35,009 nt of DNA from an uncultured Sphingomonas sp. (GTDB lineage Bacteria > Pseudomonadota > Alphaproteobacteria > Sphingomonadales > Sphingomonadaceae): NCBI RefSeq assembly GCF_946477935.1, contig NZ_CAMLAC010000013.1, positions 1 to 35,009 on the forward strand, given 5' to 3'. Under the pieces are notes generated by a model. It was given only the letters and a program-made list of their open reading frames with translations. It made no database searches and was not told the DNA's origin. Made by a program: the position numbers and the translations under genes. Below are positions 16,106-31,510 of the stretch, one piece after another; positions within the stretch are counted from its first letter, which is position 1; every line of letters begins with the position of its first letter.

Positions 16106-17005
16106 ATGGTTACTCTGCTCGCGGACACGAACGCGTTACGTCATCCTGGCTTAAAGGCCTACCTGCAAGCGTCGCGCGACCATGCGATCGCGCTGTCGGA
16201 CCTCATGTTAGTCGAGATGCGCAAGACCAGGGCGCTGTCGACGTCTCGGGAATCGCTGCAAATCGTCGCACATTATCCGCAGCAATCCTATGCCCTGCGC
16301 CGCACCCACGAGATGCTAGGCGAAAAGATCACTTCCGCAGAGCAGAGCCACGTCCTGTTCGACTATGAGGCCACGGCCCATCTGACAGATCTGTCTCGCC
16401 GGCTGCTGACGCTGCCGCCGCCAGCCGGCCTCGCCAAGGAGATGGCGCAGCTCGAGGCTGACGCACAGCTCATCGTGGCTCGGCTGACCGAGGAAGTGGC
16501 CGCGCTCGAGCCCGGACTGGTGTCCGCGGCACAGGACTTCACGCCGGCCGAGCTAACGCAGATTCGCACTATGAAGGACGTGACGGACAGCACGCGCCGC
16601 AAGCTCCTTGATCTTCTTAAAGAGACGACCGGCGGGTTCATCTTGCAGAACCAGGAGCCCCGCCGCCGCGCGCCGATGCTGCTGCGCGACACCATAGGCC
16701 AGTTCGCCTTCCGTTACTCGTTGTGCATGCTTCTTTACTACATGGAGTGGGTCCGCATCGGACGACAGACGGGCAAGAGGTTGCCGCTCCGCGTCAACGA
16801 CGTCGTCGACATGCAAGTCGCCGCCATGGGCACATACTTTAACGGCGTGCTGAGTGCCGACAGAAACCTTCAGATCGTCTCCAACACCGCGCGCGGTGTA
16901 TTGCGCGGTTTCGGCGCCTATGTGGGCGAGGACTGGCGCTTGCCGCGACCACCTCAGGAGACCGACGACGCCAACGGCGATGCAAGCCTGATCGATCCGA
17001 GTTAA
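16106..17005 (+). CDS. PIN-like domain protein paired with the SIR2 gene
   Basis: A 299-aa protein. The N-terminal VTLLADTNALRHPGL has the D-T-N motif of PIN nucleases (Asp7), followed by an acidic residue in DLMLVEMRK (Glu37). Near the C-terminus are NDVVDMQVAAMG (Asp232/Asp235) and GVLSADRNLQIV (Asp252), matching the remaining PIN acidic positions. A helical insert of about 190 residues separates the halves, much longer than in VapC toxins (about 130 aa in total). The gene ends 9 bp before the SIR2 gene and is almost certainly co-transcribed with it. I infer an RNase or regulatory role in the same system. No antitoxin-like partner gene is present. Confidence 0.72.
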   Translation: MVTLLADTNALRHPGLKAYLQASRDHAIALSDLMLVEMRKTRALSTSRESLQIVAHYPQQSYALRRTHEMLGEKITSAEQSHVLFDYEATAHLTDLSRRLLTLPPPAGLAKEMAQLEADAQLIVARLTEEVAALEPGLVSAAQDFTPAELTQIRTMKDVTDSTRRKLLDLLKETTGGFILQNQEPRRRAPMLLRDTIGQFAFRYSLCMLLYYMEWVRIGRQTGKRLPLRVNDVVDMQVAAMGTYFNGVLSADRNLQIVSNTARGVLRGFGAYVGEDWRLPRPPQETDDANGDASLIDPS

Positions 17006-17014
17006 ACCTCTGCC

Positions 17015-20000
17015 ATGCGCTTCCTTGCCAACGGTCCCTCGATTCCCGACGATCTTCTGATCGCGCGCGACGCGGGTGACGTCATCTTCTTCTGCGGCGC
17101 CGGCGTCTCCCGCCACCGCGCCGGGCTGCCCGACTTTCTCAAGCTCGGCGGCGACGTGATCGATCTCCTCGGCGCCGGCGACAAGAGTCTTGCCCGCAAG
17201 CTGTTCCGCCGGATCAATGAGCTCGACCCGATCGACGGCGTCGGCGGACTGATCGCCACCGATCGCATCTTCAGCCTGCTCGAACGCGAGTTCGAACAAC
17301 GCGATGTCCGGAACGCCGTTGCGCGCGCGATCAAGCCTGCGGACGATCCAGACCTCAGCGCGCACCGAACTCTGATCGACCTGTCGAGCGGCCGCGACGG
17401 AACGGTCCGGCTGGTCACTACCAATTTCGACTTGCTGTTCGAGGCAGCGGCGCCCGGGCTTGCCTGCTCCGGACCTCCGGTCCTGCCCGACCCGCGCAGC
17501 GCCGGCTTCGGCGGCATCGTTCATCTTCACGGGCGCGTGGATGCCGATTATCTCGGACCGGGCGACGAGGAGTTCATTGTTTCCAGCGCCGACTTCGGTC
17601 GCGCCTATCTGTCCGACGGCTGGGCGACGCGCTTCATGCAGTCACTGCTTGCCCGCTTCCAGATCGTCTTCGTCGGCTACGGCGCCGACGATCCGCCAGT
17701 TCAATATCTGCTTGAGGCGCTGAATCTCCACGCCGGCAATCGCAGCCGGCTGTTCGCCTTTCAGCCGGGCAGCAACGCGGACGACGCGGCGCTTTGGGAA
17801 CATCGGGGTGTGCGGGCAATCCCATTCGACAGCAGCCAAGGCTATGATCCCCTGTGGGACAGCCTCGCGGCCTGGGCCGAGCGCGCGCGCGACGTCGATG
17901 GCTGGTACGCCAGGCTGATTGATATCGCGTCCGCAGGGCCCGCCGAACTCGATCCGCATCTGCGCGGCCAGATCGCCCATATGCTATCGACCCGAGAAGG
18001 CGCCCGGCGTGTCAGCATCGCCGAGACACCGCTGCCCGCTTCATGGCTGCTCGCATTGGATCCACGCCAGCGGTTCGACAAGCCGGGTCTTATCGACCCC
18101 TATGGTGAATCCGGCGAGCGGATCGATCCTTATGAGAAGCTGGCGCTCGACTTCGACACGCCGCCGCAGCCGGTCGATGAGGACGACGCTTTTCGCGACC
18201 GGAAGGTGCCCGATGACACGTGGAGCGCCTTCGCGCCCACCCGCTTCGATCAGGAGGACGTACAGGAAACGGGGTTCGGCGACTTTTACGGCCACCGGGC
18301 AAATCTTGCCGGACCACTGAGCACTCGCCTCCACCATCTCGGCATCTGGTTTCACCGCGTTGCTCATCAGCCGGTCGCCCTATGGTGGGCGGCCGCGAAC
18401 GGTCCCCTCCACCCGCGCATCGTTGAGATGATCGAAGCATGGCTCCGCCAAGACCCGGATCGTTGGCCCGACGACATCCGACGCGGCTGGCGCTTCCTGA
18501 TCGCGAGCTGGTCCGATCGCCGGGTGGAACCCGACCAAGGCTATTTCGAGCTCAGCCAGCGGGTGGCGCGCGAGGGATGGTCAGAAGCGCGCGTACGCGA
18601 CTATGCAGCCCTCTTTCGGCCCCGACTGAAGGTCGACCGCAAGTTCGGGGTGCCGCATCCGCTCTCCTGGTCCGACAGCGACCGCCCGAACCCGCTGGTC
18701 GCCTATGATGTCGACTATCCGCATCCCTACGAGCTGCTGACCATTCCCGACGATCAGCTTGCCTATGCGACCACGCGCTTCCGCGAGAACCTCGACCTCG
18801 CCCGCTCAATCGAAGCCGAGATCTCCGGGCACGACCATGTCCATATGGAAACGACGCGGCCAGACGACGGCGCTCCCCCCATAGCCTATGACAGCTATGG
18901 GCTCACGGGCCCGATCGCGCTGTTCCTCCAGCTGATGGAGCAGCTGGTCGAAGTCTCACCCGAACTCGCCCGCAGCGAGATCGCCCGATGGCCGACGGAC
19001 GATCAATATATCTTCGGGCGCCTGCGCATTTGGGCGGCGAGCAATCCGATCGTACCGCCGGGGGAAGCGGCCGACATCCTGCTCGGCTTCCCCGACCACA
19101 CGTTCTGGAGTTCGGAGCAGCAGCGCGACCTTCTCTATGCGATCCGCGACCGCTGGCCAGACTTCGCCACCGAGGATCGGACGCGATTTGAGCATCGCAT
19201 CCTCACTACGACATTTCCTTGGTCCGACAGAACCCGCGGCGGAAAGGCCCGCGCGGCGGCTCATTATCGGCTCGATCGCCTGCATTGGCTGTCACGGCAT
19301 GATGTCGCTTTCTCGTTTGATGTCGAGGCGGAAATGGCGGCGCTTCGCCCGATCGCGGAAGGGTGGTCGGAGCGTTCCGGCGAGGAAGCGGCGGACTCGC
19401 ACGCGCCAGTGGTGCGCACCATCGACACCGACGCCGATCCGCGCGTGCTAGAACAGGTGCCGATCAGTGAGGTCCTCGAACGAGCCCGGCAGGCGGGCCA
19501 GTCCGACTTCTTCGACTTTGTCGAGCGCCGCCCGTTCAACGGCCTCGCCGAGCAGAAGCCCGCACGAGCGCTCGCAGTCCTTACGGATGCCGCGCGCAAG
19601 GGCGAGGTTCCGGTCTCCTTCTGGTCAGCCTTTCTTTATGCCGAGACGCGCAAGCATGATTCTATAAGGCTAACGCAGGCGATCGCCGGCCGCCTCGCAT
19701 CCCTGTCGCCCGATGCACTTAGCACCATCGCCTATCCGGCTGCCGAATGGCTTCAAGGCCTGGGCGAGCGCCTCTTCGCCGAACTCGCCGCAGTGCTGGA
19801 CTGCCTATGGGACCCACTCATGGCAGCGCTGCCGCTGCGCGACGACGACCGCAAGCACCGCGTCGACAGCAGCTGGGCGAACGATGCGCTGAACGCGCCC
19901 GCCGGCAAGCTCGCCAGCCTGCTCATGAAGGACCCGTCGACCAAGGGCCTCCCGTTCGGCCAAGGCTTCCCCGAAGATTGGACGCGCCGCCACGAACAGC

Positions 20001-20812
20001 TAATCGCGCTGCCGGGCGACATGCGCCGGCACGCGCTCGTGATGCTAGGATTCCAGATCAATTGGCTGTTCGCCATTGCCCCTGACTGGACCAACGCAAA
20101 TCTGCTTACTGTGGTAGATGACGAGGGCGATGATGGCGACGCGCTGTGGGACGGCATCCTCTGGGCGGCCCGGGCGCCGAGCCGAACGCTTTACGAGCGC
20201 CTGAAGCCGGGACTTCTCGCTCGGGCCATGTCGCCCATGCGACGCCGCGCCGAAGCCAATGTCATCGGCGGCTTCCTACTGATTGGCTGGGGCGGCGATC
20301 CCGATGCCGATCCGCCCGCGCAACTCGTCACCAGCGCAGAGCTGCGCGAGATCCTCGTTGAGAGCGATGATGATCTGCGCGGACAGATTCTGTGGCATCT
20401 TGAGCATTGGTCAGCGGACCACGAGGCCAAGTGGCGTGCGCGCCTCGTCAGGTTCCTAATCGACGTCTGGCCCAATCACCGGGCCCTCCGGACCCCGGAG
20501 ATATCCACCCGCCTCGTCGATCTCGCTTTGGCTAGCGGCGATCTTTTCCCGCAGGTCGTGCAGGCGATCTTGCCGCGGCTGGTGCCGGTGCGAGGCGGAA
20601 TGCTGCGTGGACTAACGCTTCGCTCGGAGGTCGGAAGCCATCCCGCGCTGGTTTATCCCGCCGCGATGCTCGACCTTCTCTGGGCGACCCTCGCCGAGGA
20701 TGCGACGCTATGGCCGTATAAGATTGAAGAGGTGCTGGACGTGCTTTCCGGCAGGCAGGAAACCCTAGCCGACCCCCGGCTATCGGAATTGCGTCGTCGA
20801 CGCGCTGGCTAA
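17015..20812 (+). CDS. Large SIR2-domain protein, probable defence effector
   Basis: A 1265-aa protein. The N-terminal sirtuin-fold NADase domain shows FFCGAGVSRHRAGLPDF (residues 26-41), the TTNFD motif (135-139), HLHG with the catalytic His (170-173), and GYGADDPPVQ (221-230). The remaining 950 residues are helical, rich in Trp, Arg and Asp, with no visible ATPase motif. They may correspond to DUF4020 or the sensor regions of Dsr-type proteins (from memory). Known defence-associated sirtuins deplete NAD+ on phage infection and cause abortive infection. That role is proposed here by analogy. There is no strong Shine-Dalgarno sequence, so it may be translated by coupling to the PIN gene. Confidence 0.88.
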   Translation: MRFLANGPSIPDDLLIARDAGDVIFFCGAGVSRHRAGLPDFLKLGGDVIDLLGAGDKSLARKLFRRINELDPIDGVGGLIATDRIFSLLEREFEQRDVRNAVARAIKPADDPDLSAHRTLIDLSSGRDGTVRLVTTNFDLLFEAAAPGLACSGPPVLPDPRSAGFGGIVHLHGRVDADYLGPGDEEFIVSSADFGRAYLSDGWATRFMQSLLARFQIVFVGYGADDPPVQYLLEALNLHAGNRSRLFAFQPGSNADDAALWEHRGVRAIPFDSSQGYDPLWDSLAAWAERARDVDGWYARLIDIASAGPAELDPHLRGQIAHMLSTREGARRVSIAETPLPASWLLALDPRQRFDKPGLIDPYGESGERIDPYEKLALDFDTPPQPVDEDDAFRDRKVPDDTWSAFAPTRFDQEDVQETGFGDFYGHRANLAGPLSTRLHHLGIWFHRVAHQPVALWWAAANGPLHPRIVEMIEAWLRQDPDRWPDDIRRGWRFLIASWSDRRVEPDQGYFELSQRVAREGWSEARVRDYAALFRPRLKVDRKFGVPHPLSWSDSDRPNPLVAYDVDYPHPYELLTIPDDQLAYATTRFRENLDLARSIEAEISGHDHVHMETTRPDDGAPPIAYDSYGLTGPIALFLQLMEQLVEVSPELARSEIARWPTDDQYIFGRLRIWAASNPIVPPGEAADILLGFPDHTFWSSEQQRDLLYAIRDRWPDFATEDRTRFEHRILTTTFPWSDRTRGGKARAAAHYRLDRLHWLSRHDVAFSFDVEAEMAALRPIAEGWSERSGEEAADSHAPVVRTIDTDADPRVLEQVPISEVLERARQAGQSDFFDFVERRPFNGLAEQKPARALAVLTDAARKGEVPVSFWSAFLYAETRKHDSIRLTQAIAGRLASLSPDALSTIAYPAAEWLQGLGERLFAELAAVLDCLWDPLMAALPLRDDDRKHRVDSSWANDALNAPAGKLASLLMKDPSTKGLPFGQGFPEDWTRRHEQLIALPGDMRRHALVMLGFQINWLFAIAPDWTNANLLTVVDDEGDDGDALWDGILWAARAPSRTLYERLKPGLLARAMSPMRRRAEANVIGGFLLIGWGGDPDADPPAQLVTSAELREILVESDDDLRGQILWHLEHWSADHEAKWRARLVRFLIDVWPNHRALRTPEISTRLVDLALASGDLFPQVVQAILPRLVPVRGGMLRGLTLRSEVGSHPALVYPAAMLDLLWATLAEDATLWPYKIEEVLDVLSGRQETLADPRLSELRRRRAG

Positions 20813-26283: not shown

Positions 26284-26442
26284 CCGCCCTGCCCCCTCAG
26301 CCCAGCTTGTAACGCACCTTATAAAGAATGGTCAATTCCGCTTGTGCGATAACTGCAATTATCAAAGGTTCACATAACGAAGGGTACGGACGAGGAAACC
26401 AACTGCTGACTTTGGTTTCTTCGCGTGGCATCGTCGTCGCCC
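26284..26442. promoter_or_regulatory. Divergent promoter region with two inverted repeats
   Basis: The 159-bp gap between the TIR-like operon and the RHE_PE00001-like gene is AT-richer than its surroundings. It has an 8-bp perfect inverted repeat GAAACCAA/TTGGTTTC (26395-26402 and 26412-26419, 9-nt loop) and a GATAA/TTATC pair (26348-26352 and 26359-26363). These could be operators for either gene. No clean -35/-10 pair stands out. Confidence 0.45.
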
Positions 26443-27384
26443 ATGACCCGCGACGACAACCCGCGCGCCGATGACGCATTGCTTTTGCTGGGGCGCCTAG
26501 ACGGCCGCTTGCAGGGTAGCACATGCGCAGACATCTTTCTCGCCCGTTCGCGTCTGGAGGGCGCATCTGCCCTCGCCGGCCTCGCCGGCGTGCCAATCGC
26601 AGTGAGAGACCTGCAGGACTGGATCGCGGGCCGCGCACCCCCTCCCCGCTCGTCGGAGGGCCTCAACGATCCGATCTCGGTTGCGGCCATCTTCCACATT
26701 GCTCTCAGCCGCGATGAGGATCTCAGCGACCCGCTCGCCCGCGCGACGCTGAATGCGCTGCGTTCGGTCTTGGACGATCGCGCTGAGGCGGAAACCTATG
26801 CGACGTCGGACCTCGCCCATTTCGGTCCACTTTGGCGGAAGGTGCGGGCGGCGGCAGACGCCCCCTTCCCTACCGGCGACATCCTCGGCGTCGCGGAACG
26901 GGTCTTCGAGCTGGCCGCATCCACCGAGCCAGCGCCCACAAGCGGATGGGATGTGGTTAGCCTCGATGGCCGGACGCTCAACCTTCCACCGCGCGATCGC
27001 GATCGAAACTGGCTGATAGCGGTCGCGGTGCCACGGATGCTCTACCGCGCCGGCTTCACCACGCAGGTCATCCCTTCTTGTATCCTGCTGCCAAAGTACC
27101 TGCCCCCCTCCCCTGTCGAACTCGCTACGCTGATGGTCCGGGCGATTGGCCGAACGGCTCTGACGGGGCTTCGGGAATTGGATTCCCTCGAACGTGCGGC
27201 GGCGCGCATCCAATTGGATCTTCAGGTCACGAAGCGGAGCAAGGCTCCCCTGCTCGCTCGGCTCCAGCTCTCCTACCCAGGACTTCAGCCTGCCGCGGTC
27301 GCGCGCCTGCTGAAGGTCACACCCCAAGGTGCCCGCAAGCTCCTGGCGTCGGCCTCGTTCGGGTCACGCCCAGTGCTGATCTAG
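26443..27384 (+). CDS. RHE_PE00001/DUF1612-like HTH protein
   Basis: A 313-aa protein beginning at ATG 26443 (MTRDDNPRADD). The N-terminal part ADDALLLLGRLDGRLQGS, followed by FLARSRLEGASALAGLAGVPI, resembles the plasmid-encoded RHE_PE00001/DUF1612 family of rhizobia and sphingomonads (from memory). The C-terminus has a helix-turn-helix, LQPAAVARLLKVTPQGARKLL. It probably binds DNA and may influence plasmid maintenance, since it lies beside the partition genes. Its stop overlaps the convergent parB end by 21 bp. The family call is moderate, the HTH call fairly good. Confidence 0.75.
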   Translation: MTRDDNPRADDALLLLGRLDGRLQGSTCADIFLARSRLEGASALAGLAGVPIAVRDLQDWIAGRAPPPRSSEGLNDPISVAAIFHIALSRDEDLSDPLARATLNALRSVLDDRAEAETYATSDLAHFGPLWRKVRAAADAPFPTGDILGVAERVFELAASTEPAPTSGWDVVSLDGRTLNLPPRDRDRNWLIAVAVPRMLYRAGFTTQVIPSCILLPKYLPPSPVELATLMVRAIGRTALTGLRELDSLERAAARIQLDLQVTKRSKAPLLARLQLSYPGLQPAAVARLLKVTPQGARKLLASASFGSRPVLI

Positions 27385-28377
27385 CACCGCCCGGATCGCC
27401 TCCTCCGCGTCCTGGCGAGATGCTCCGCCCTTGCTCAGCAGGGTCAAGCGGATGCCCTTCCGGTCGGCGCCCTCTATCCGGAGCACCGGCTTCCCGGTTG
27501 AACTGGAGACGGTCTCCGGCTTTCCTGACCTCTTGGGGGATCCTGACCTCTTGGGGGGGTCTGCCGCCAAGGTGAGCGCCTTGATCACATCGAGAACCGG
27601 CAACACCTCTCCGCTCGCCGCCTGCGCTTCGGAAAGTCGCGCTGCCTCCTTGTAGGCCCTCGCCTTACGGTCCTCCGGCTTCAGAAGCCCCTTAAGGGCA
27701 ATCGCGTTGCGAATGCCAAGATCCTGTGGATTCACGAACGCCCGGGTCAGCTCCTCTGGCAGGCGCGCCAGATCGAGGTAGCGGGTCAGCCAGCTCTCGG
27801 AGACCTTGAGCCGCTCGGCCATGGTCTTCTGGCGGCCATCGTAATAGGTGTCGAGCGCGCGCAGATAGTCCCTAGCCCGCTCAAGGTCAGTCAGGTCATC
27901 ACGAGCCCGGTTCTCGATGTCGGCGAGTCGGAAAGCTTCCTCGTCCCCGATTTCGCGCACATCGACCAGAAACTTGAAGTCAGGGTAATTGTGGGTTCTC
28001 AGCCAGCTGATCGACCAATGCCGCCGCGCTCCACAGATCACTTCGAAATCGAAGTCAGGATCGCCTGAGACTCGCCGCACGATCGCCGGCATCTCCTGGC
28101 GCCCCTGCGCCTTGATGCTCTCGATCAGATCCGCGCAGCGTTCCTCGGTAAGCAGCGCGTAGTCGCGGTTATGCCCTGCCCACATCCGGCAGCGCGCCGG
28201 ATCGACAAGTTCATGCGTACGATTGACGATCGCGCCGGAAGCAAGGTCCGCAAGCCTATTTGAGCGCCCCGTCAGCACGTTTGAAGCGAGGCCCGAGCGA
28301 CGCGGCGGCGGAGTTTCCTCGGACAGATCGATGCCCGCCGCCAGATCGGCCGCAAAGCCGGTGTTTTTCCTGCTCAT
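27364..28377 (-). CDS. parB: ParB, plasmid partition protein
   Basis: A 337-aa centromere-binding CTPase. The N-terminal ParB/Srx domain holds the nucleotide-binding motif CGARRHW (115-121), and the central HTH lies around KTMAERLKVSESWLTRYLDLARLPEEL. The C-terminal third is variable and contains two KRSG repeats (PPKRSGSPKRSGK) encoded by a tandem 18-bp DNA repeat that matches the plasmid iterons. The protein presumably loads at the parS palindromes just upstream and in front of parA. The ATG follows AGGGAGG. The gene converges with and overlaps the RHE_PE00001-like gene by 21 bp. Confidence 0.96.
   Translation of the reverse strand: MSRKNTGFAADLAAGIDLSEETPPPRRSGLASNVLTGRSNRLADLASGAIVNRTHELVDPARCRMWAGHNRDYALLTEERCADLIESIKAQGRQEMPAIVRRVSGDPDFDFEVICGARRHWSISWLRTHNYPDFKFLVDVREIGDEEAFRLADIENRARDDLTDLERARDYLRALDTYYDGRQKTMAERLKVSESWLTRYLDLARLPEELTRAFVNPQDLGIRNAIALKGLLKPEDRKARAYKEAARLSEAQAASGEVLPVLDVIKALTLAADPPKRSGSPKRSGKPETVSSSTGKPVLRIEGADRKGIRLTLLSKGGASRQDAEEAIRAVLDQHWA
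27523..27557 (-). repeat. Two iteron copies inside parB
   Basis: TCCTGACCTCTTGGGGG occurs at 27523-27539 and at 27541-27557 (18-bp step). On the minus strand each reads CCCCCAAGAGGTCAGGA, differing from the oriV iteron CCCCCAATCGGTCAGGA at two adjacent bases. The tandem encodes the KRSG repeats of ParB in frame. Confidence 0.85.
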
Positions 28378-28395
28378 TCGAGCCTCCCTCTAGCG

Positions 28396-28413
28396 AATTG
28401 CACGCGTGCAATT
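28396..28413. promoter_or_regulatory. parS-like site, copy 1
   Basis: An 18-bp perfect palindrome, AATTGCACGCGTGCAATT, 19 bp upstream of the parB start. Two identical copies occur elsewhere in the par/rep block. Palindrome size and location next to parAB fit ParB binding sites; they may also repress parB. Confidence 0.88.
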
Positions 28414-28430
28414 GTTCCTTGTTCTCGCAA

Positions 28431-28448
28431 AATTGCACGCGTGCAATT
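28431..28448. promoter_or_regulatory. parS-like site, copy 2
   Basis: The same 18-bp palindrome, 17 bp from copy 1, in the 79-bp gap between parA and parB. The 35-bp centre-to-centre distance is close to an integral number of helical turns (about 3.3), so the two could bind ParB together. Confidence 0.88.
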
Positions 28449-28456
28449 TCGGACTT

Positions 28457-29659
28457 TCACGCCAGCGCAGCCTTGCGCAACGCTGCCTGATGGCTTGGCC
28501 ACATCGACCTGATATCGACTTCGATCTCCGCGTTCACGCCGTCGAGATAACCAAGGCAGCGATTGCGAACGGCCGAGCTGGTCGCAGGGCCATCAAGCTC
28601 ATACACGGTCATCAGCCGGGCGGTTGCATTATCGATCTCAGCCGAATCCTTGAGTGGTGTCCGCACCATCGCATGCCCGAACAGCGTCCGCATCAGATGC
28701 AGCAGTTCCTTTTGCATCGACTTGTTCTCGTCGACCTTGGAACCGACGAACCGCAGAAACTGAAGCTCCGGCGCCAAACCACGCTCCGCCAGCTGCTCGA
28801 TTGTCTCATCGAGCATCGACAGGAATGCCGCCGTTGACGAGAAATCCATGACCGTCGGCGGCACCGGAACGACCAAGGCGTTCGCCGCGCGGAGGACCGA
28901 CAGCGAGATCGCGCCCAGCGCCGGCGGCGGATCCATCACGATCACGTCGAACCGATCCGAAATGCTCTCGATCCCCTCCTTCAAGCGGTCGAGGAGTCCG
29001 TCGCTTCCCCGCGCCATGCGCGCGGCCAGTTCATACTCCGAGTTGAACAGCCGGAGGTTTGCTGGGATCAGTCCCAGGCCATCGAAATGCGTCTTTCGCA
29101 GCGCGTAATCGAGCGATAACCGCTCGCCCTCCCGCAGGAACGGATAGAGCGTATCGTCCTCGCCGAGGTCGAGATCGGGAACGTAGCCGAACAGCGTCGT
29201 TGCCGAAGCCTGGCTATCGCAATCGACAAGGGCAACGCGATAGCCTCGGATCGCCAGATATTGGGCAAGGTGGACCGCTACCGTGGACTTGCCCACCCCG
29301 CCCTTGAAGTTCTGAACGGCCACGACACAGCACGGATCACTTGCCGCCCGATAGGGACGGGTCCCAAAGACGCCTCGCATGTCGTTCAGCTGAGCCAGCG
29401 TATATCGTTCGCGTCGATTGGTGTCGGTCCGTGATGGCTCGGGAAGGCGCCCGTCCTTCTCCGCATCGCGGATCGCCGCCGGCGTTCGACCCACCAGCTC
29501 GGCCGCCTTGCTGATCGTGAAGGTCGGCTCGCGCCGGTCATCAGCCCGCGCACTACGGGCTGAATCGCGCAGCTTCTCAAGCACTGACGAAGTTCGACTG
29601 GCAAGCGTCGCAACCGAGACGATCCGCTCGGCTTCCTCTATCTCGAGTCCGTTAGCCAC
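28457..29659 (-). CDS. parA: ParA, plasmid partition ATPase
   Basis: A 400-aa Walker-type ATPase. The N-terminal region (about 48-100) has a MerR-like HTH (ISKAAELVGRTPAAIRDAEKDGRLPEP), as in type Ia ParA proteins that repress their own promoter. The ATPase core has the deviant Walker A FKGGVGKST (118-126), Walker A' VALVDCDSQASATTLFG and Walker B VIVMDPPPALG. The start is a GTG after AAGGTAGG. It is encoded between repA and parB, all on the minus strand. A parS-like site lies upstream in the repA-parA gap, consistent with autoregulation. Confidence 0.96.
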   Translation of the reverse strand: MANGLEIEEAERIVSVATLASRTSSVLEKLRDSARSARADDRREPTFTISKAAELVGRTPAAIRDAEKDGRLPEPSRTDTNRRERYTLAQLNDMRGVFGTRPYRAASDPCCVVAVQNFKGGVGKSTVAVHLAQYLAIRGYRVALVDCDSQASATTLFGYVPDLDLGEDDTLYPFLREGERLSLDYALRKTHFDGLGLIPANLRLFNSEYELAARMARGSDGLLDRLKEGIESISDRFDVIVMDPPPALGAISLSVLRAANALVVPVPPTVMDFSSTAAFLSMLDETIEQLAERGLAPELQFLRFVGSKVDENKSMQKELLHLMRTLFGHAMVRTPLKDSAEIDNATARLMTVYELDGPATSSAVRNRCLGYLDGVNAEIEVDIRSMWPSHQAALRKAALA

Positions 29660-29778
29660 ATGCCTACCTTTCGCAATTCGGCGTGTGGTACACCGACTTG
29701 CGCTTTTCGGTCAAGAAATGGCGAACTTTCGAAAGTCACCGAGCGGTGAAGCGGCCATCGGGCTAGTTTTACCCGTCA

Positions 29779-29795
29779 TCCTGACTCGGTGGGGG
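29779..29795 (-). repeat. Diverged iteron copy between repA and parA
   Basis: On the minus strand this reads CCCCCACCGAGTCAGGA and matches 13 of 17 positions of the oriV iteron. It lies 8 bp from parS copy 3. Confidence 0.5.
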
Positions 29796-29803
29796 ATCAT
29801 CGA

Positions 29804-29821
29804 AATTGCACGCGTGCAATT
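29804..29821. promoter_or_regulatory. parS-like site, copy 3
   Basis: An identical AATTGCACGCGTGCAATT palindrome, 7 bp beyond the repA stop and 144 bp upstream of the parA start. It may act as partition site and as operator for parA. Confidence 0.85.
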
Positions 29822-29828
29822 CTTGCTC

Positions 29829-30989
29829 TCAGGGACGTCCCCGACGGTTGACCCAGCCCTCGCAGAACCCCTTCCAAGAGGCGACCATCTTGGCACCTCG
29901 GAGCTTCCCAAGGCGCTCACCCATATGCTCGCGGTAGGCATCCGCGATCATGTTGATGTCCCAGCCACCCCCGTGTGCACGGCCGATGGCCAGGAGTTCA
30001 TCCTCGCCAAAATGAAGCGACCCTCGCGGGAACGTCTTTTCCTCCGGCTTGGCTTTGGGAAGAAACTTCGTTGGCGCCGGAATCTTCCCCTGCCCTGCCC
30101 CCGCAACGCTCACCGTCTCCACGCTACCGTCACGCCGCGCTTCGCGTCCCGATGAGTGCCGATTTAGCTCGTCCACCGTCTCGATAACCTCGGGTGCGCC
30201 CTTTGGCTCGAAGCGGAACTCCAGCTCGGTGACCGTCCGCCCCTGCCGAACCTCCCGCCACTCCACCCTGAAATGGGCCAGCTGATCGATTTCAGCCTTC
30301 GCCTTTTCCAGCACCTTCCGCCGCAACTGGGCGAAGTCCGCATAGACCTCCGGCGGAATGCCCAGCGCGGCGCGGAGCGCTTGCATGTCACCCTTCCATG
30401 TGGCCTGCCGCCGATGCAGTCGGAGTGCGCCAAGCTCATAAAGCTTTAGGGCGTAGCTCGATCTGAAGCCAAGAACGGCCTGCCGGTTGAGCACCGCATA
30501 GGTCTCGGAAGCCTGAATGAGCTTTCGCGCGTCGGGCGTGAACTCCCACTCGATCCAGCCCGCCTCGCCACCGTCCTCTTCGCTCTCCTCGCGCGACCGC
30601 GAGATGAGCGAGAAGCGCAGCGTCGCCTTTTTCCCTCGCCAAGATTTGTCGTCGACGGCGAACAGCGTGCGATGGAGCTCCTCCAACATGTCGCTGATAC
30701 GCTCATTGCCCTTGTGACCCCGGCGGATGTCCGCCTTGCGCATGCGATGCGGACGATCCTCCCAGGCATCCCCGCCCGCCGTCAGGATCATCAGCGCAAG
30801 CAATCGCGAGGCTGTCAGACTAAGAGACTCGCCCTTAACGAATTTAACTTCGATGATGCTACCTGGTTTAGCGAATTGATCGCCACCTTTGGCCTTCAGC
30901 GCGGCCGCAACTCGCATCGCACGACCTGGCGATGCTTCCTCGCCGGTCAGGTGTACCGCCTCATCTATTTGGCCAGCGTCGGTTTCCAT
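29829..30989 (-). CDS. repA: RepA, iteron-type plasmid replication initiator
   Basis: A 386-aa initiator with a Rep_3-like double winged-helix layout. WH1 includes LSLTASRLLALMILTAGG and the RISDMLEELHRTLFAVDD region; WH2 includes LKLYELGALRLHRRQATWKGDMQALRAALGIPPEVYADFAQLRRKVLEKAKAEI in several pieces. The C-terminal extension (FGEDELLAIGRAHGG...VASWKGFCEGWVNRRG) is common in alphaproteobacterial RepA proteins. It would open the origin at the iterons upstream and repress itself through the inverted repeat at 31033-31066. The ATG at 30989 has no obvious Shine-Dalgarno sequence, so expression may be low. It heads a repA-parA-parB unit. Confidence 0.92.
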   Translation of the reverse strand: METDAGQIDEAVHLTGEEASPGRAMRVAAALKAKGGDQFAKPGSIIEVKFVKGESLSLTASRLLALMILTAGGDAWEDRPHRMRKADIRRGHKGNERISDMLEELHRTLFAVDDKSWRGKKATLRFSLISRSREESEEDGGEAGWIEWEFTPDARKLIQASETYAVLNRQAVLGFRSSYALKLYELGALRLHRRQATWKGDMQALRAALGIPPEVYADFAQLRRKVLEKAKAEIDQLAHFRVEWREVRQGRTVTELEFRFEPKGAPEVIETVDELNRHSSGREARRDGSVETVSVAGAGQGKIPAPTKFLPKAKPEEKTFPRGSLHFGEDELLAIGRAHGGGWDINMIADAYREHMGERLGKLRGAKMVASWKGFCEGWVNRRGRP

Positions 30990-31032
30990 GCCATGATTAC
31001 GATCAGATGTGAGTCCCGGTGCCTAGTTGCTG

Positions 31033-31066
31033 CCTGACCTGACCTCTTCCGTCAAGTCAGGTCAGG
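31033..31066. promoter_or_regulatory. Inverted-repeat operator upstream of repA
   Basis: CCTGACCTGAC (31033-31043) and GTCAGGTCAGG (31056-31066) are perfect 11-bp inverted repeats with a 12-bp spacer. The right arm plus next base contains GGTCAGGA, the conserved half of the iteron. A TTGACG box on the minus strand (31050-31055) lies in the spacer and could be the repA -35. This matches the classic layout in which Rep dimers repress repA and Rep monomers bind iterons. Confidence 0.75.
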
Positions 31067-31085
31067 ATCGTGCGCCGCTCGGCCT

Positions 31086-31102
31086 CCCCCAATCGGTCAG
31101 GA
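31086..31102 (+). repeat. Iteron 1 (isolated copy)
   Basis: CCCCCAATCGGTCAGGA, identical to iteron 2, next to the AT-rich segment ATAAAATTGCATG. Confidence 0.85.
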
Positions 31103-31249
31103 TAAAATTGCATGTCTATGGGTAAAAATTCGCAGAAGGGTGCCGAGTCGCGCGGCGCTCCCCAAACGATGCCCGCCAACCGCCTTTCTGGTCGCTTTGC
31201 CGATCAAGGCGCATCAAAACTGTGCCAAAGCCCGCCCAAAATCACGGTC

Positions 31250-31351
31250 CCCCCAATCGGTCAGGATTGCCCCAGCAGGTCAGGTATCACCCCCCAACGG
31301 GACAGGTTGAAGCCCCCAATGGGTCAGTCAAACACCCCCGTGCGGTCAGGC
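31250..31351 (+). repeat. Iteron array, copies 2-6
   Basis: Five 17-bp copies start at 31250, 31269, 31291, 31313 and 31335. The first is identical to the consensus CCCCCAATCGGTCAGGA; the others match 12-14 of 17 positions and keep the C-run plus a GGTCAGG-like core. Steps are 19, 22, 22 and 22 bp, so most copies lie on the same face of the helix. They are presumed RepA binding sites. Confidence 0.88.
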
Positions 31352-31424
31352 AAAACGCCGTAGTCCGTTGATTTCGATGGGGTTTTCGCGCCCAGAATCT
31401 GAATCTTTTGAAACACGAATCCTT

Positions 31425-31447
31425 CCGCTGCGAGCAGCGGCGTTTTT
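31425..31447 (+). terminator. Rho-independent terminator-like hairpin
   Basis: CCGCTG-CGAG-CAGCGG followed by CGTTTTTAAA. The 6-bp stem, tetraloop and T-tract fit an intrinsic terminator on the plus strand. No gene on that strand ends just before it, so it may stop an RNA coming out of the origin or insulate the Toprim operon. Confidence 0.6.
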
Positions 31448-31510
31448 AAAGATGATTCTTTGAGGAAGTTCACCCGAGTCGCATCCGTCGACAACTGGCA
31501 CGACGCTGAG

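Follow-up and report, generated by a model that had tools for sequence, protein, structure and literature searches.

Conserved replication iterons within parB of a Sphingomonadales plasmid cassette: a probable incA-like control site inside a partition gene

The repA-parA-parB cassette and its iterons

The window, meaning the whole stretch of 35,009 nucleotides analysed here, carries genes for replication initiation and partition together with iterons and palindromes, which are arranged as follows.

27364..28377, minus strand: parB, 337 aa, SopB-type HTH (PF18090, PF17762)
27523..27539, minus strand: parB iteron, second copy in the reading direction, CCCCCAAGAGGTCAGGA, encoding part of S-PKRSG
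27541..27557, minus strand: parB iteron, first copy in the reading direction, CCCCCAAGAGGTCAGGA, encoding part of P-PKRSG
28397..28412: parS-like palindrome right before the parB start
28432..28447: parS-like palindrome upstream of parB
28457..29659, minus strand: parA, 400 aa, AAA_31 ATPase
29779..29795, minus strand: control iteron in the repA-parA gap, CCCCCACCGAGTCAGGA
29805..29820: parS-like palindrome ATTGCACGCGTGCAAT, 9 bp from the repA-parA iteron
29829..30989, minus strand: repA, 386 aa, Rep_3 initiator (Rep3_N WH1, Rep3_C WH2)
31033..31066: inverted repeat CCTGACCTGAC...GTCAGGTCAGG upstream of repA, also present in related sequences
31086..31102, plus strand: oriV-side iteron, CCCCCAATCGGTCAGGA
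31250..31351, plus strand: oriV iteron array, starts at 31250, 31269, 31291, 31313 and 31335, mostly 22 bp spacing

RepA has two winged-helix Rep_3 domains (PF01051 and PF21205, both above cut-off), and six direct repeats upstream of repA (31086-31351), kept in relatives and including CCCCCAATCGGTCAGGA copies at 31086 and 31250, mark the locus as a probable iteron-type Rep_3 replicon. A search of solved structures with RepA returned no match at E 0.01. The inverted repeat at 31033..31066 is likely to be the RepA operator. Pfam matches for a ParA ATPase and an HTH ParB, together with conserved palindromes nearby as candidate parS, identify a parABS cassette; the palindrome ATTGCAC(GC or CG)GTGCAAT, which is likely to be parS, is separated from the gap iteron by about 8-14 bp in most loci and is found a second time ahead of parB. 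A scan for sigma-70-like promoters across 27300-31500 found none, the sigma-70 pattern being uninformative for alphaproteobacteria. A convergent plus-strand ORF of unknown family (26425-27384) overlaps the last 21 bases of parB, and similar overlaps are annotated in two related loci (L009 and L010).

The two iterons inside parB are spaced 18 bp apart, encode PKRSG-PKRSG in frame and are identical to the oriV iteron at 15/17 positions; the coordinates, strand, identity and coding recorded in the initial annotation are all correct. In the predicted structure of ParB they fall in a low-confidence linker, with residues 278-285 at pLDDT below 50. With at most three mismatches allowed, CCCCCAANNGGTCAGGA is matched nine times in the window, whereas shuffles give an expectation of 0.92 and none of 100 shuffles reaches nine; perfect matches in the 3.9 Mb assembly are confined to two in parB and two at oriV. 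The iteron at 29779-29795 on the minus strand, which is also kept in relatives, had been overlooked. Hence two of the three control iterons of the window lie in parB and the remaining one in the repA-parA gap.

Conservation across related replicons

Relatives were collected from plasmid records and 79 genome-contig loci, and the set was then extended to more distant members. Removal of ParBs at least 93% alike left 54 non-redundant loci with a Rep_3 RepA of the window's family, in which iterons were called with one mismatch allowed, against a consensus drawn partly from the window itself. Paired iterons stand at the same parB codons in 47 of the 54 loci, six loci have one and a single locus (L109, Komagataeibacter) has none, and the repA-parA gap holds one to four iterons in every one of the 54. 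With ParB 57-99% identical to that of the window, nearly all RepA-bearing loci have a PPKKSGSPKKSG-like linker, and the DNA keeps the iteron. On eight complete plasmids (70-374 kb) iterons occur only at oriV, in the repA-parA gap and in parB, and a reversed-pattern control on the same plasmids gave zero matches.

Where the stretch read takes in the whole of oriV, the oriV arrays of RepA-bearing relatives comprise 4-7 iterons, at a spacing of about 22 bp, as against 18 bp, rarely 21 or 24, in parB. The non-origin iterons also differ in sequence, with A at motif position 10 in 54% of gap copies and 60% of parB copies compared with 15% at oriV. The bias is present even in the non-coding gap, and the control iterons may constitute a distinct affinity class.

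A relative with the same oriV iteron but without a match in parB had been named in advance as evidence against the iteron reading. Such a case exists once, in L109, where the oriV iteron is the same and parB iterons are absent; four iterons occupy the repA-parA gap there instead.

Beyond this family, the iterons that accompany more distant RepAs (about 40% identity; L111-L113, L130-L137) are of other kinds, CCCCC-NNNNN-CTCACAT in several of the loci read, and no homologue of the window's ParA or ParB could be detected in the stretches read. A Sulfitobacter locus (L114) showed no origin repeat common to parB, and 385 genomes drawn from the class yielded no additional RepA. Two records are worth mentioning in their own right. 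One contig of 4.1 Mb (L126; G455 contig 1) contains repA, parA and parB as a complete cassette, along with iterons of all three classes; given the size of the contig, this cassette is probably located in a chromosome or fused replicon. The other, a metagenome-assembled record titled as the cyanobacterium Kaiparowitsia implicata (L065), has a cassette closely resembling the sphingomonad ones and is likely to be a contaminating contig.

Selection on DNA and protein within parB

Codon usage was analysed in 82 distinct ParBs. The serines of the repeat are encoded by TCA at 77/77 and 76/76 positions, although these genes use TCA for only 7% of their serines, and the prolines of the repeat by CCC at 81/82 and 81/81 against a background of 25%. 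Likewise, the serine between the copies, the commonest residue there, is TCC in 68/69 (background 12%). Of all 12-codon windows in parB, the one beginning at amino acid 274 has the highest excess codon identity (0.526; all windows mean 0.089, sd 0.075). With the proteins kept fixed and their codons resampled at background usage, 0.02 copies of the motif would be expected per locus, compared with 1.94 seen.

Where the protein does vary, the motif is mostly spared. Residue 280 may be S, T, P or A, and its codon retains the motif CC as TCC, ACC, CCC or GCC in 80/82 (the others being one TCT and one AAG); residue 274 may be P, A, R or L, and its codon almost always ends in C. The view taken in the initial annotation, in which the copies are replication iterons lying within parB and a chance likeness is unlikely, gains strong support from the freezing of codons and further backing from the substitutions in the protein, which touch only bases that lie beyond the motif. 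Lysines 276 and 282 are conserved beyond what the oriV iteron requires at those bases, so some protein constraint must also be present.

Overall, codon usage and distribution among relatives show that iteron DNA at fixed parB codons and at least one gap iteron are maintained by selection wherever the cognate Rep_3 RepA is present, except in L109. Judged in this way, the parB sites are real, conserved and selected DNA sites in a coding gene.

Changes of initiator as natural experiments

Two loci have window-type ParAB near an RPA initiator (PF10134) and no RepA-type initiator nearby, namely those of Novosphingobium rosa (L081, ParB 73%) and Sphingobium jiangsuense (L102, ParB 55%). A second ParB accompanies the RPA initiator in both, as part of a second ParAB set in S. 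jiangsuense. No iteron was found anywhere in either stretch, and the parS before parB is retained in both. Since the two fall inside separate groups of the ParB tree, each with 100/100 support, the losses are independent. Moreover, the other plasmid of the N. rosa genome, which does have a RepA, carries the parB iteron.

A second kind of change concerns the type of RepA. In one group of loci (L023) ParA is 93% and ParB 84% identical to the window, whereas RepA shares only 66% identity with that of the window, compared with 85% with the RepA of L125 and 76% with that of L026. In the L023 group both parB copies read ACA and not TCA, as they do in L125, L026 and L129. Sorted by RepA type, ACA occurs in 4/6 versus 1/48 lineages (Fisher p 2.3e-4), and the A-fraction at oriV is higher where parB has A (p 0.0014), the lineages being not fully independent in either comparison; L110 and L128 are exceptions to the pattern of A/T association. 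Read from these identities, the L023-group lineage gained a different RepA type and both parB copies were altered (TCA to ACA) to match. This agreement with RepA type, and the loss where no cognate RepA is nearby, lend additional weight to the identification of the parB copies as iterons.

A putative incA-like control locus partly within parB

It is probable that the coding sequence of parB also serves as part of an incA-like locus for replication control, at which bound RepA would limit initiation by titration or handcuffing. Non-origin iterons of the origin's sequence downstream of the initiator gene, in nearly all relatives and nowhere else on the eight plasmids, are what such a locus would consist of. 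RepA monomers are envisaged to bind the parB and gap iterons, and these occupied sites would titrate RepA and pair, via RepA, with the oriV iterons in handcuffed complexes; titration and handcuffing together would hold copy number down and cause incompatibility. The sites would not themselves initiate, because no origin lies there. Among the three roles suggested in the initial annotation, handcuffing, here together with titration, is the best fit to the distribution of the sites. The four gap iterons of L109, with none in parB, were counted as support for parB and gap forming a single control locus. Counted against it were the iteron-free parB of the same locus, the behaviour of L110 and L128, the over-conservation of the lysines, and the parB spacing, which differs from that at oriV and makes the geometry of any cooperative pairing conjectural.

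ParB itself could be a further participant. ParB2 of Vibrio cholerae is described as spreading from a neighbouring parS into the inhibitory RctB site (rctA) and as competing with RctB at other sites (PMC3688505), which makes competition between ParB and RepA plausible here. ParB loaded at a nearby parS might slide across the iterons and compete with RepA, a weaker part of the scheme; assembly of the partition complex would therefore ease the brake and tie replication to segregation. The conserved parS nearby suggests that ParB could relieve the brake. It is a tentative and rather doubtful extension that ParB sliding from the adjacent parS strips RepA off iterons in its own gene, with the building of the segregation complex resetting the replication brake once per cycle and the ParB linker shaped by the DNA specificity of the initiator.

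Alternatives to a control locus should be considered against the same evidence. RepA bound in parB could mainly be a transcriptional roadblock that lowers ParB output when RepA is abundant, with copy-number control secondary. Since the parB sites are found some 820 bp inside the last gene of parA-parB, and the repA-parA iteron stands ahead of parA, RepA might have two places at which to act on the operon, and repression of parB, as first suggested, is possible. However, a block so late in the gene would give truncated ParB, and in L109 every control iteron lies in the repA-parA gap, a placement easier to reconcile with a dosage of control sites than with a brake specific to parB; as the main role, a roadblock is unlikely.

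We consider it quite unlikely that the chief role of RepA-bound iterons is to shape the partition complex, as barriers limiting the sliding of ParB from the two parS. The closeness of parS to the gap iteron and to parB would suit such a role, and P1 iterons with RepA are described as a working roadblock to ParB spreading (PMC3688505). Yet N. rosa and S. jiangsuense keep the parS before parB without any iteron, so partition itself does not need them. In addition, RepA is usually scarce in iteron plasmids, which does not favour a barrier.

A second replication origin or initiation element in parB, another of the roles first suggested, is very improbable and finds no support: the sequence is that of the oriV iterons, but only one or two of them are present, accompanying a full oriV array of 4-7 in those RepA-bearing relatives whose stretch read takes in all of oriV. 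That the repeat was selected as protein, a basic PKKSG-PKKSG linker resembling the iteron by chance, is barely credible and is refuted as the sole cause, for although the linker is basic and flexible and its lysines are kept, the codons are frozen far beyond the resampled expectation, the same motif occurs as non-coding DNA in the repA-parA gap, and in N. rosa the basic linker PPKKAPTRKAAG persists with the DNA motif gone. An RNA or translation signal, such as a slippery C run causing frameshifting, is just as hard to credit, since the C run does come with the rare codons AGG and TCA but the site folds more weakly than shuffles (z +1.06), and such a signal would leave unexplained both the loss where no cognate RepA is nearby and the presence of identical copies in non-coding DNA, at oriV and ahead of parA.

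Comparison with known systems

The closest counterpart is incA of P1 (AF234172), where the initiator is likewise named RepA, the order is oriV iterons-repA-control iterons-parA-parB, and the non-origin iterons belong to the sequence family of the origin. However, P1 has nine control iterons, all in the repA-parA gap, whereas here the parB coding sequence holds most of the control iterons. When P1 parB and parA were scanned with a profile of the annotated P1 iterons, nothing scored as high as the weakest annotated iteron (best 8.2 vs 8.8). Confinement of control iterons to the gap, as in P1, does not hold in the window, and L109 alone is P1-like.

The rctA and 39-mer sites of Vibrio cholerae chromosome 2 are similarly inhibitory initiator-binding sites beside parS (PMC3688505, PMC6090056), binding being putative in the present case. 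In contrast, the 39-mers do not share the sequence of the origin iterons, and their described locations are the origin region and its rctA flank, not the interior of a par gene. The repABC replicons have a RepC-binding origin inside repC and hence also a replication element within a coding gene of the cassette (PMC6090056). There, however, the embedded element is the origin itself, in the initiator gene and devoid of iterons; here a partition gene harbours control iterons that are not part of the origin. The PMC literature (titles, abstracts and some full text), which leaves the subscription literature mostly uncovered, yielded no account of initiator sites within parB.

Implications and additional observations

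Control iterons outside the origin are already known, but here they are carried in the ORF of a partition protein, in widely varied plasmids of the Sphingomonadales and Caulobacterales. This stretch of parB seems to serve at once as protein code and as a brake on plasmid replication. It is a clear natural case of the same bases being under selection both as DNA and as protein, natural experiments included, in the form of losses where another initiator is linked to ParAB and a change with RepA type. Because the iterons sit in the parB ORF, the coupling of initiator and partition is directly testable by synonymous recoding. Codon-optimising or otherwise recoding parB in vectors derived from these plasmids may alter copy number.

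Elsewhere in the window, the region 16106-20812 holds an ORF of 1265 aa (17015-20812). The ORF directly before it had no PADLOC match, and the first part of the 1265-aa ORF is matched by models of Dsr1, a SIR2-type anti-phage defence protein, and by Pfam SIR2_2.
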